Below are positions 44,138 through 48,000 of a DNA stretch of 64,000 nucleotides, one piece after another. The notes below the pieces were generated by a model that saw only the letters and a program-made list of their open reading frames with translations, searched no databases and was not told the DNA's origin. The stretch's first letter is position 1. The number at the start of each line of letters is the position of its first letter. The position numbers and the translations under genes were made by a program. The DNA comes from Salarchaeum sp. JOR-1 (lineage in GTDB: Archaea > Halobacteriota > Halobacteria > Halobacteriales > Halobacteriaceae): NCBI RefSeq assembly GCF_007833275.1, contig NZ_CP042241.1:1984001-2048000 (forward strand), given 5' to 3'.

Positions 44138-45565
44138 ATGAGTTCAGACGAACACCTCAAAGACACCGACACGGAAGCCCGCTTCGAGTTCAAGAAAGAG
44201 GAGAGCTCGGCGTTCGAGTCGGGGAAAGGACTGACCGAGGAGACGATCCGTCTCATCTCGGAGGACAAGGACGAGCCCGAGTGGATGCTGCAGCGGCGTC
44301 TGCGCGCGCTCGAACACTACCAGGAGATGCCGCTGCCGACGGACTGGCCCGGCCAGCCCGACCTCACCGGACTCGACATCGAGGAGATCGTTCCCTACAT
44401 CCGTCCCGACATCGAGACGCGGGGCGGTGCGGAGAACTGGGAGGACCTGCCGGACGAGATTCAGGACACGTTCGAGAAGCTCGGCATCCCGGAAGCCGAG
44501 CGGGAGGCTCTCTCGGGCGTCGGCGCGCAGTACGAGTCCGAGATCGTCTACCAGAACATGCAGGAGCAGTGGGAGGAGAAGGGGGTCGTGTTCATGGACA
44601 TGGACAAGGCCGTCCAGGAGCACCCGGAGAAAGTGAAGGAGCACTTCATGACGAAGAACGTGCCCCCGAGCGACAACAAGTTCGCCGCGCTCCACGGCGC
44701 AGTCTGGTCGGGCGGGTCGTTCGTCTACGTCCCCGAGGACGTGACGGTTCAGATGCCGATTCAGGCGTACTTCCGCATGAACAGCGAGGGCATGGGCCAG
44801 TTCGAGCACACGCTCATCATCGCGGAGAAGGGCAGCGAAGTCCACTACATCGAGGGCTGTAGCGCGCCGAAGTACGGCACGCACAACCTTCACTCCGGCG
44901 GCGTCGAAGTCTTCGTCGGCGAGGACGCGCACGTGCAGTACTCGACCGTGCAGAACTGGTCGAAGAACACGTACAACCTCAACACGAAGCGCGCCATCGT
45001 CGAGGAGAACGGCACGATGGAGTGGGTTTCGGGGAGTATGGGGTCGAAGGCGACGATGCTCTACCCCTGCACCATCCTCAAGGGTCGCGGCGCGACGGAC
45101 AACCACATCACCATCGCGTTCGCGGGCGAAGACCAGGACATCGACACCGGCGCGAAGGTCTACCACAACGCGCCCGAGACGAAGTCCACCATCGAGTCCA
45201 AGTCCATCAGCAAGGACGGCGGCCGCACGAACTACCGCGGCCTCGTCCACATCTCGGACGGCGCGGAGAACTCCAGTACGTCGGTGGAGTGTGACGCGCT
45301 GATGTTCGACAACGAGTCCACGTCGGACACCATGCCGTACATGGAGATCGAGGAGTCGAAAGTGGACGTAGCCCACGAGGCCACCGTGGGTAAAATCGGC
45401 GACGAAGACGTCTTCTACCTCCAGTCGCGCGGACTGGACGACGACGACGCGAAGCAGATGATCGTCGCCGGGTTCATCGAACCCATCACGGAGGAACTGC
45501 CCATCGAGTACGCGGTCGAACTCAACCGCCTCATCGAACTGGAGATGGAGGGGAGTCTCGGATGA
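44138..45565 (+). CDS. sufB: Fe-S cluster assembly scaffold SufB
   Basis: 475-residue scaffold on which iron-sulfur clusters are built with SufC and SufD. Conserved features include KNVPPSDNKFAALHGAVWSGGSFVYVPEDVTVQMPIQAYFRMN, EGCSAPKYGTHNLHSGGVEVFVGEDAHVQYSTVQNW and the C-terminal FYLQSRGLDDDDAKQMIVAGFIEPI; the conserved Cys of the EGCSAP motif is in place. The stop overlaps sufD by 4 bp. No intein is present, although SufB inteins occur in other archaea. Confidence 0.95.
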   Translation: MSSDEHLKDTDTEARFEFKKEESSAFESGKGLTEETIRLISEDKDEPEWMLQRRLRALEHYQEMPLPTDWPGQPDLTGLDIEEIVPYIRPDIETRGGAENWEDLPDEIQDTFEKLGIPEAEREALSGVGAQYESEIVYQNMQEQWEEKGVVFMDMDKAVQEHPEKVKEHFMTKNVPPSDNKFAALHGAVWSGGSFVYVPEDVTVQMPIQAYFRMNSEGMGQFEHTLIIAEKGSEVHYIEGCSAPKYGTHNLHSGGVEVFVGEDAHVQYSTVQNWSKNTYNLNTKRAIVEENGTMEWVSGSMGSKATMLYPCTILKGRGATDNHITIAFAGEDQDIDTGAKVYHNAPETKSTIESKSISKDGGRTNYRGLVHISDGAENSSTSVECDALMFDNESTSDTMPYMEIEESKVDVAHEATVGKIGDEDVFYLQSRGLDDDDAKQMIVAGFIEPITEELPIEYAVELNRLIELEMEGSLG

Positions 45566-46824
45566 GCACGCAACTCCACGACGGCATCACCGAGGAGACG
45601 GTTCGGGAGCTCTCGGAAGAGCGTAACGAGCCGGAGTGGCTCCTCGAAACGCGTCTCGAGGCGCTCGACGAACTGGACAGCCTCGACTACCCGAGCGTCA
45701 TCCAGACGCCGGGTCGGACGTGGACGAACCTCGAAGACCTCGACTTCGAGGCGCTCGTCGAACCGCACGAGCAGACCGAGGAGAAAGACCTCGAAGTGGA
45801 CGCGGACGCGACGGTCGTGCCGTTCCACCGCGCGCTCGACGACGCCGACCTCGAAGAACTCGTGAAAGAACACTTCGGGTCTATCGTCTCGACCACCGAA
45901 AACCGGCTGACGGCGCTCTCCACGGCGCTGTTCACCACGGGCACGGTCATCTACGTCCCGAGCGGCGTGGACGCGGAGGACGTGAAGGTGCGGACGACGA
46001 TGAACGGCCGGTCGCTGTTCAACTACACGCTCGTCGTCACCGACGAGAACGCGTCCGTCACCATCCTGGAGCGACAGGACACCGGCGACGAACTGGAGTC
46101 GCGTAGCGACGCCGAACGAGCGAGCGGTGACGAACCGCGAGCAGACGACGAGCGGTACTACTCCGGTATCGTCGAGGTCGCCGCGGGCGAGAACTCGTAC
46201 GTCCAGTACGGGAGCCTGCAGGACTTCGACCAGCAGACGTACAACTACACGGTAAAGCGCGGCGACGCCGACACCTACAGCACCATCAACTGGATCGAGG
46301 GCAACCTCGGGAGTCGGCTGACGAAGACCGCGGTCAGCACCGAGCTCAACGGCGACAGTTCGGAGACGCAGATCGTCGGCGCGTTCTTCGGGCACGACGA
46401 CCAGCACTTCGACCTCGAGAGCGCGGTCTGGCACCGCGCCGAGCACACGACCGCCGACCTCGTCACGCGCGGCGTCATCGACGACCACGCGCGCTCCGTC
46501 TACGAGGGCACGCAGGACGTCGGCCGGGACGCCTGGGACACCTCCAGCTATCAGCGCGAGAACACGCTCATGTTGAGCGACGAGTCCGAGGCGGACGCGT
46601 CCCCGAAGCTCATCATCAACAACCACGACACGGAAGCGAGTCACTCCGCGACGGTCGGTCAGATCGACGAGGAGGACTTGTTCTACATGAAGAACCGCGC
46701 GGTTCCGCCGCAGGCCGCGAAGAACATGCTCGTCGAGGGGTTCTACGTCCCCGTCCTCGAAGAGATCGAGGTGGACGAACTCCGCGACGACCTCGAACAG
46801 CGCATCCACGAACGCCTCCAGTAG
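45562..46824 (+). CDS. sufD: Fe-S cluster assembly protein SufD
   Basis: 420-residue SufBD-family partner of SufB. The beta-helix core (FTTGTVIYVPSGVDAEDVKVRTTMNGRSLFNYTLVVTDENASVTILERQ) and the C-terminal SHSATVGQIDEEDLFYMKNRAVPPQAAKNMLVEGFYVPVL, where SufD carries a conserved His, are visible. An acidic insertion around residues 175-195 is haloarchaeal. It ends the sufCBD operon. Confidence 0.94.
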   Translation: MSTQLHDGITEETVRELSEERNEPEWLLETRLEALDELDSLDYPSVIQTPGRTWTNLEDLDFEALVEPHEQTEEKDLEVDADATVVPFHRALDDADLEELVKEHFGSIVSTTENRLTALSTALFTTGTVIYVPSGVDAEDVKVRTTMNGRSLFNYTLVVTDENASVTILERQDTGDELESRSDAERASGDEPRADDERYYSGIVEVAAGENSYVQYGSLQDFDQQTYNYTVKRGDADTYSTINWIEGNLGSRLTKTAVSTELNGDSSETQIVGAFFGHDDQHFDLESAVWHRAEHTTADLVTRGVIDDHARSVYEGTQDVGRDAWDTSSYQRENTLMLSDESEADASPKLIINNHDTEASHSATVGQIDEEDLFYMKNRAVPPQAAKNMLVEGFYVPVLEEIEVDELRDDLEQRIHERLQ

Positions 46825-46936: not shown

Positions 46937-46942
46937 TTTAAG
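46937..46942 (+). promoter_or_regulatory. TATA box of the ferritin-like/DtxR operon
   Basis: TTTAAG lies 25-30 bp before ATG 46967. A leaderless transcript would begin at the tiny ORF there, not at the ferritin-like GTG 46993. Confidence 0.55.
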
Positions 46943-46966: not shown

Positions 46967-46996
46967 ATGACGGACGGACGCCGAGGTGAGCCGTGA
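46967..46996 (+). CDS. Nine-residue leader ORF
   Basis: ATG 46967 reads MTDGRRGEP then TGA at 46994-46996. The stop overlaps the GTG start of the ferritin-like protein at 46993. The TATA box position makes it the first ORF on the transcript. Whether the peptide is made is not known. Confidence 0.4.
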   Translation: MTDGRRGEP

Positions 46997-47487
46997 GTTC
47001 AGTCGCCGCACGCGTGGACTCGGACGACCAGCTCGCGCGCCTCCTCCAGATCGGTATCGTGCTCGAGGAGGTCGTGGAAGCCCGCGCGTACCAGCACTAC
47101 CAGCGCCTCCCCGCGGACGAACGCGACGAACGCATCGAGGAACTTCTGGCGGACGCGCGCGAGGAATCACACCGCCATCGCGAACGCCTCGAAGCGCTCG
47201 TCGACGAACTGGACGCGGACAGCATTCCGTTCGACGACATTCAAGCACTCGTGAACGCCCAGTACGCACAGACGCGCCCGGACGACTTCGACGGCGTGCT
47301 CTACGACCAACTGAACGGCGAAGAAACGGCCTACAAGTTCTACGACGACCTCATCGACGCCATCGAATCGAGCGACACGGAGTTCACCGTCTCCCGCGAC
47401 GACCTCTTGGGCGTCCTCCGGGCCATCAGGCAGGCCGAAGCCGAGGGCGTCGAAGAAGTCGCGAACCTCATGGAGGATCGCGTATGA
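46993..47487 (+). CDS. Ferritin-like/rubrerythrin-like protein
   Basis: 164-residue alpha-helical protein of the ferritin-like superfamily, probably binding iron or another metal. Helix 1 has LLQIGIVLEEVVEARAYQHYQRL, helix 2 AREESHRHRERLEALVDEL with an E-x-x-H pattern, and a later helix NGEETAYKFYDDLIDAIE. Conserved Glu and His are thus present in the arrangement for a di-iron site; true activity is unproven. GTG 46993 is inside the stop of a nine-codon leader. The DtxR-type regulator follows, so the pair is probably a metal-controlled operon. Confidence 0.75.
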   Translation: MSSVAARVDSDDQLARLLQIGIVLEEVVEARAYQHYQRLPADERDERIEELLADAREESHRHRERLEALVDELDADSIPFDDIQALVNAQYAQTRPDDFDGVLYDQLNGEETAYKFYDDLIDAIESSDTEFTVSRDDLLGVLRAIRQAEAEGVEEVANLMEDRV

Positions 47488-47507
47488 CGCGGGTGGTCGG
47501 CAAATGA
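47484..47507 (+). CDS. Seven-residue link ORF
   Basis: ATG 47484 (overlapping the ferritin-like stop, ATGA) reads MTRVVGK and stops at TGA 47505-47507, which itself overlaps ATG 47504 of the next tiny ORF. Translation is unproven. Confidence 0.3.
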   Translation: MTRVVGK

Positions 47508-47563
47508 ACCGAACGAGACGCGAGTCTCGCGTGCGCACGCGGCCCACGGGGTGGTCTGCATGA
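47504..47563 (+). CDS. Nineteen-residue link ORF
   Basis: ATG 47504 reads an Arg-rich peptide beginning MNRTRRESRV and ends at TGA 47561-47563, overlapping ATG 47560 of the DtxR-type gene. It completes a chain of four stop/start overlaps. Translation is unproven. Confidence 0.35.
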   Translation: MNRTRRESRVRTRPTGWSA

Positions 47564-48000
47564 ACACAGCGAATCAATACCTGAAGACGATCTTCGTCGT
47601 CCAGCAGTTAGAGGACGGCCCGGCGTCCACGGGCGCGCTCGCGAACCGCCTCGACGTGAGTCCCGCGAGCGTGAACGAGATGGTCGGAAAGCTCGAGGAT
47701 CGCGGGCTCGTGGTGCACGAGAAATACAAGGGCGCGTCTCTCACGGACGATGGAAAAGCCCGGGCAGTCGAAGCGCTCGGCACGTACTGCATTCTCGAAC
47801 GCTTTCTCGCGAACGTCCTCGACGTCGAGGAATACCGAGAAGAAGCACGCCAACTCGAGCCCGTCATCGACGAAACCGTCGCTGACCGCCTCGACATGAT
47901 CATCGACCGCGAACCCGACTGTCCCGCCTGCTTCGATCCCGAATCCGACGCGTGTGGGAAACTCGTCGAGGAACTCGAGGGCGTGCAGGCCGACGACTAG
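47560..48000 (+). CDS. DtxR-family metal-dependent regulator with altered metal site
   Basis: 146-residue regulator. The winged helix LEDGPASTGALANRLDVSPASVNEMVGKLEDRGLVVHEKYKGASLTDDG (residues 17-66) is clear DtxR type, and a dimerisation region follows. In this group a Glu-His pair binds metal; here the corresponding stretch reads EEARQLEPVID, so the usual His is replaced by Pro. A Cys-rich tail, DCPACFDPESDACG, may bind metal instead. It follows the ferritin-like gene through two tiny ORFs and probably regulates iron handling. ATG 47560 is favoured over GTG 47551 by family start. Confidence 0.8.
   Translation: MNTANQYLKTIFVVQQLEDGPASTGALANRLDVSPASVNEMVGKLEDRGLVVHEKYKGASLTDDGKARAVEALGTYCILERFLANVLDVEEYREEARQLEPVIDETVADRLDMIIDREPDCPACFDPESDACGKLVEELEGVQADD

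Follow-up and report, generated by a model that had tools for sequence, protein, structure and literature searches.

A chain of tiny open reading frames (ORFs), joined to one another and to their neighbours by stop/start overlaps, leads from an internal promoter through a ferritin-like gene to a DtxR-family metal regulator in the window (the whole analysed stretch of 64,000 nt of haloarchaeal DNA), and corresponding chains bridge every longer gap between these two genes in the relatives analysed. The tiny ORFs are likely to be disposable ribosome relays that operate by termination-reinitiation, a role for which both their translation and the coupling are inferred rather than observed.

The locus comprises sufB (44138-45565), its downstream neighbour sufD (45562-46824; TIGR01981, E-value 5e-82), the ferritin/Dps-like gene (46993-47487, 164 aa, GTG start, stop TGA 47485-47487) and the DtxR-family regulator (47560-48000, 146 aa, PF01325 and PF02742), all of them, like the smaller features described here, on the + strand. 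The internal promoter is represented by a TATA-like box (TTTAAG, 46937-46942), and the ATG of a leader ORF (MTDGRRGEP, 9 codons plus stop, 46967-46996) lies 29-30 nt downstream of it. The TGA of this leader (46994-46996) overlaps the GTG at 46993 as GTGA, with an SD-like motif for reinitiation at this GTG (GAGGTGA, 46983-46989) inside the leader. At the other end of the ferritin-like gene, a GGAGG in its C-terminal codons (47472-47476), found at the matching place in many relatives with directly overlapping genes, would serve as SD for the ATG at 47484, where relay ORF 1 begins (MTRVVGK, 7 codons, 47484-47507, TGA 47505-47507). Relay ORF 2 (MNRTRRESRVRTRPTGWSA, 19 codons, 47504-47563, TGA 47561-47563) follows from the ATG at 47504, which is preceded by the SD-like GGGTGGTC (47491-47498) resembling the site before the DtxR start, while the ATG of the regulator at 47560 is preceded by the SD-like GGGGTGG (47548-47554). 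Both relay ORFs carry ATGA at both ends. The four consecutive stop/start overlaps claimed by an earlier sequence-only reading were all found at their positions when read from the sequence, and its linker length of 73 bp was off by one, the gap between the two genes being 72 nt.

In the window, a gene caller based on codon usage prefers the in-frame GTG at 47014 over that at 46993 as the ferritin-like start, so gene finders may choose a start that masks the overlap with the leader. The start at 46993 is supported by the relatives, most of which lack a start codon where 47014 would align and begin with NTG-AG(C/T) at the position of 46993.

In the mechanism that we propose, a ribosome would enter at the leaderless ATG (46967), read the 9-codon leader, terminate at the GTGA overlap, be held there by the SD motif just upstream and reinitiate at the ferritin-like GTG; from the stop of the ferritin-like gene, further rounds of reinitiation would take it to relay ORF 1, then to relay ORF 2 and in the end to the DtxR/TroR-type regulator. 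The chain would bridge the leader and the 72-nt gap, both otherwise uncrossable for a terminating haloarchaeal ribosome, so that both proteins would depend on one initiation event and their ratio would be linked. Reinitiation in Haloferax volcanii amounts to ~40-60% at a distance of 13-14 nt and is near zero at 22-23 nt (PMC10666635), and a regulator start 72 nt away should therefore be unreachable unless the ribosome is handed on. In the same species, SD motifs are non-functional for de novo initiation, and when stops were introduced into nine upstream genes, translation of the downstream genes was abolished and the transcripts remained stable (PMC6728339); for coupling in E. coli, 15 nt of the upstream gene are enough according to the literature. 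The earlier proposal that the regulator and the iron protein are kept in step is supported in the form of termination-reinitiation coupling, with the translation of the tiny ORFs still unobserved; actual translation, the efficiency of reinitiation, the dependence of downstream on upstream translation and the benefit of coupling are all inferences.

Loci were collected from 30 genomes in a first search (the window's own included), from 80 haloarchaeal genomes and from 20 more distant ones, and 126 haloarchaeal loci, each with a ferritin-like gene followed by a DtxR/TroR-type regulator, were analysed jointly. A few genomes were present twice, and these duplicates were removed by clustering. Three very distant loci (L148-L150) were not counted, since their regulator start aligns at a different position, and in two of them a direct ATGA overlap was seen on inspection. 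Under a strict test, a bridge had to connect the stop of the ferritin-like gene with the start of the regulator via 4-nt or 1-nt overlaps only. The two genes overlap directly (ATGA or GTGA) in 25 of the 126 loci and are 2-13 nt apart in 11, and an unbroken bridge spans all 90 larger gaps (16-183 nt), consisting of one tiny ORF in 87 of them (gaps of 16-160 nt) and of two in the other three (gaps of 72, 114 and 183 nt), with bridging ORFs of up to 55 codons. No unbridged gap above 13 nt occurs among the 126 loci; L041 and L042, which have gaps of 13 and 2 nt and no relay, are both within reinitiation reach. At every joint the chain thus fulfils the criterion for coupled genes: either the stop and the start share 4 or 1 nt, or a few nt separate them.

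With its two-step chain, the window shows the less common form (3/126 loci), one bridging ORF being usual in relatives with a gap. A relative of the same genus (G001) has a 34-nt gap crossed by a single 13-codon relay; the window gap is 38 nt longer, a difference that would break the frame, and the extra ATGA overlap restores the chain and keeps it intact. A tree of the two proteins implies at least 39 changes of bridge length among taxa with one relay, and at least 28 of leader length, with the chain always kept (Fitch counts, dependent on one tree). The sequence-only reading had named overlaps conserved despite changing bases as the test of a relay, and this test was passed strongly (90/90 long gaps bridged): the length and sequence of the tiny ORFs vary among relatives, and the overlaps stay.

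For the chance expectation, linkers were dinucleotide-shuffled with their length left free by 0-2 nt, and a relay was expected in ~30% of cases under this null model. When loci were clustered at 80% identity, 24/24 clusters were bridged versus 7.4 expected (log10 of the product P -12.4), and at 95% identity the figures were 71/71 versus 21.7 (log10 of the product P -36.8). Loci of relatives are not fully independent despite the tree and cluster statistics, and we consider the direction of the result unambiguous. Stops in 73 distinct linkers number 0 in the relay frame, compared with 19 and 11 in the other two frames. As an internal control, the spacer between sufD and the ferritin-like gene, which carries a promoter in most loci, showed no frame preference (46, 35 and 34 lengths over the three frames). 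Over gaps of 13-200 nt elsewhere in the window genome, 6 relays were observed versus 3.5 expected in a random sample of 464 kb composed of 20-kb stretches (restriction to SD-bearing starts left 12 gaps, too few). The relay as a genome-wide rule for every gap was therefore rejected, as this sample was near chance, and the ferritin-DtxR operon stands out as special.

What is selected in these chains are the joints, the frame and the SD motifs, while the relay and leader peptides are nearly unconstrained and not kept. The pN/pS ratio is 0.78 for linkers and 0.82 for leaders, versus 0.25 for the adjacent ferritin-like gene in the same genome pairs. SD motifs of at least 4 nt precede the DtxR start in 122/126 loci and the ferritin-like start in 108/127, mostly ending 6-7 nt ahead of the start, and the ferritin-like starts that lack them include leaderless ones. 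The stretch GGGTGGTC...ATGAAC resembles the junction at the regulator start in the window (p ~0.03), and the likeness is closer in L025 (p 0.001); given this likeness between SD-start junctions, new relays may arise by junction duplication, which for the second relay remains no more than a suggestion.

An ATG-started leader ORF that ends by a 4-nt overlap on the ferritin-like start was found in 110 of 125 loci, including all of the GTG-started ferritin-like genes (93/93). The 15 ferritin-like genes without a leader are all ATG-started, 14 of them at TATA+29/30, and the leader ATGs of the relatives lie mostly at TATA+28-32, like these leaderless genes. From this pattern it follows that an ATG, either of the gene or of a leader ORF, almost always occupies the leaderless position. 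It is likely that the window leader is translated as a leaderless ORF, an inference that rests on TATA distance, from which transcription starts were deduced, and not on observed translation. Leader lengths range from 6 to 31 codons, counted from the start nearest the gene. In five Halalkalicoccus-type loci (L025, L027, L040, L067, L106) the sufD stop and the start of the leader ORF are separated by 5-6 nt, which would make one coupled chain of sufD, the ferritin-like gene and the regulator. An alternative promoter inside the linker was rejected, as no TATA-like site was present in 87 linkers.

The regulator meets the criteria of the DtxR family, with both domains above the Pfam cutoff (PF01325, E-value 1.3e-18; PF02742, E-value 9.2e-09). 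A primer published as flanking HVO_0863 (PMC6801745) aligns, with 1 mismatch, to the leader in two Haloferax relatives; HVO_0863 has been named TroR and belongs to a set of three DtxR regulators with a link to iron homeostasis in H. volcanii (PMC11349517). The match points to an ortholog of TroR, and the regulator is probably just that. The ferritin-like protein had no Pfam or NCBIfam match and no meaningful match in a sequence search against the PDB. AlphaFold predicts it to be a helix bundle (pLDDT 77.5), for which the best Foldseek matches in the PDB were mostly Dps/ferritin-like (probability up to 1.0, TM up to 0.68), none with an E-value < 0.001 and hence weak. The ferritin-like assignment is plausible and unproven, being predicted from a model without metal-site evidence. 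The protein is present in 388 of the 394 genomes of the class and yet lacks a family match, and can be regarded as a conserved haloarchaeal family that is still without a name.

Several other explanations could be put forward for such chains. The simplest, which the sequence-only reading had itself raised as a caveat, is that short open frames are common in GC-rich DNA and the overlaps arise by chance; linkers of the right length indeed relay in 50-100% of shuffles for most gaps (the two-step linker of the window in 17%), linkers of free length do so in ~30%, and relays elsewhere in the sampled window genome are near chance. Against it stand the lack of a single exception in 90 long gaps, the occurrence of only those length classes that allow an unbroken chain, a relay frame without stops and a neighbouring promoter spacer without frame bias. 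The caveat is contradicted by the comparative data and has failed, and coincidence can be all but ruled out. A similarly remote possibility is that, instead of reinitiating, ribosomes shift frame or read through the stop at ATGA joints and make fused proteins; a minor frameshifted fusion has been reported for an AUGA joint of M. tuberculosis (PMC11260477). However, reinitiation was dominant in that same report, and fusion across a series of tiny ORFs that vary freely in length would append random peptides to a conserved protein.

Two further rivals are not excluded to the same degree and appear very improbable. Continuous ribosome cover might guard the linker mRNA from cutting or transcription termination without any coupling; this would also need an unbroken open frame over the gap and would be indifferent to the peptide, but it requires neither exact 4-nt joints with an SD at each step nor a leader ORF, and H. 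volcanii transcripts are stable even when long parts of them are untranslated (PMC6728339). Alternatively, the leader or bridging peptides might sense a signal (by stalling or attenuation) and pass it to the regulator gene, a reading for which we have no fold or stall data. Leader residues are common to some clades, e.g., MRTGVSNGDGWSR in Halorubrum, but the common residues are partly due to the SD motif, and sequences and lengths vary between genera at a pN/pS of ~0.8. The leader ORFs fail the criterion for a regulatory leader peptide or attenuator, which calls for a conserved peptide or regulatory codons (pN/pS 0.82, varying lengths). The sequence-only proposal of a signal passed through leader-peptide translation is consequently not supported, since both the sequence and the length of the peptides vary freely, with little constraint (pN/pS 0.82).

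Relay ORFs were also seen outside this operon. At the rpl4-rpl23 junction of the window genome (G000:C2:1215497-1215562; L151/L181), a 58-nt gap is crossed by a 21-codon relay, and in most relatives these two genes overlap directly. The sequence involved is a 62-nt element of the form ATGA-[21 codons, ...LTGGESR]-ATGA with the inverted repeat CTCACCGGAGGTGAG, which a pattern for its 3' half detected in 22 of 394 genomes (L218-L239) from several haloarchaeal families; 21 of the 22 loci carry ATGA at both ends, fused to the preceding stop and the following start. Its sites are rpl4|rpl23, etfB|etfA, trpB|trpA and rpl2|rps19.

A bolder reading, towards which we lean by a small margin, is that relay ORFs are a regular haloarchaeal device that carries post-termination ribosomes over untranslated spacers. 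In the ferritin-TroR operon the device would have arisen on the spot (possibly by junction duplication), and it would have been spread to other places by the portable 62-nt element, which inserts precisely into ATGA junctions. If the relay operates as proposed, operon gaps can hold translated, meaningless ORFs whose sole role is to hand the ribosome on; annotation pipelines would miss them, and small-protein surveys may misread them as functional peptides. The level of the TroR-type metal regulator would then be locked to that of its ferritin-like partner, as is suggested here. The conservation of the relay also lends evolutionary support to the claim that ribosomes of archaea are unable to scan over a gap, and the chain offers a natural system for measuring how many successive reinitiations one ribosome makes.

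Termination-reinitiation coupling is already known, and the multi-step relay via disposable ORFs is new within the literature searched, in which no bridging ORFs were found for haloarchaea (most subscription papers were outside its scope). The known relatives are the TeRe gene pairs of Haloferax volcanii and E. coli (Huber 2019, PMC6728339; Huber 2023, PMC10666635), which share with the present chain the 4-nt NTGA joints, an SD motif in the upstream frame and, in haloarchaea, the use of SD motifs for reinitiation only. Whereas TeRe pairs consist of two protein genes, the chains described here add one or two tiny ORFs, whose peptide is not conserved, in series over gaps of up to 183 nt. The coupled mycobacterial uORFs (uPPE2-PPE2, PMC11260477) are similar in that a short upstream ORF delivers ribosomes via an NTGA overlap, as are the leaderless small ORFs of mycobacteria (PMC4633059) and synthetic bicistronic designs; in contrast to the mycobacterial uORFs, the haloarchaeal leader is conserved before one gene in most of the class and is free in length. 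Mycobacterial MIRUs (Supply 1997, per PMC12548453) are likewise short intergenic ORFs joined to the downstream gene by a -4 overlap. Unlike them, the linkers between the ferritin-like gene and the regulator are not repeat elements: in the window genome the linker occurs as a single copy and linker lengths vary (16-183 nt across loci), and the interpretation of the window linker as a MIRU-like repeat element was rejected on these grounds. It is the 62-nt element, and not the ferritin-DtxR linker, that resembles the mycobacterial MIRUs.
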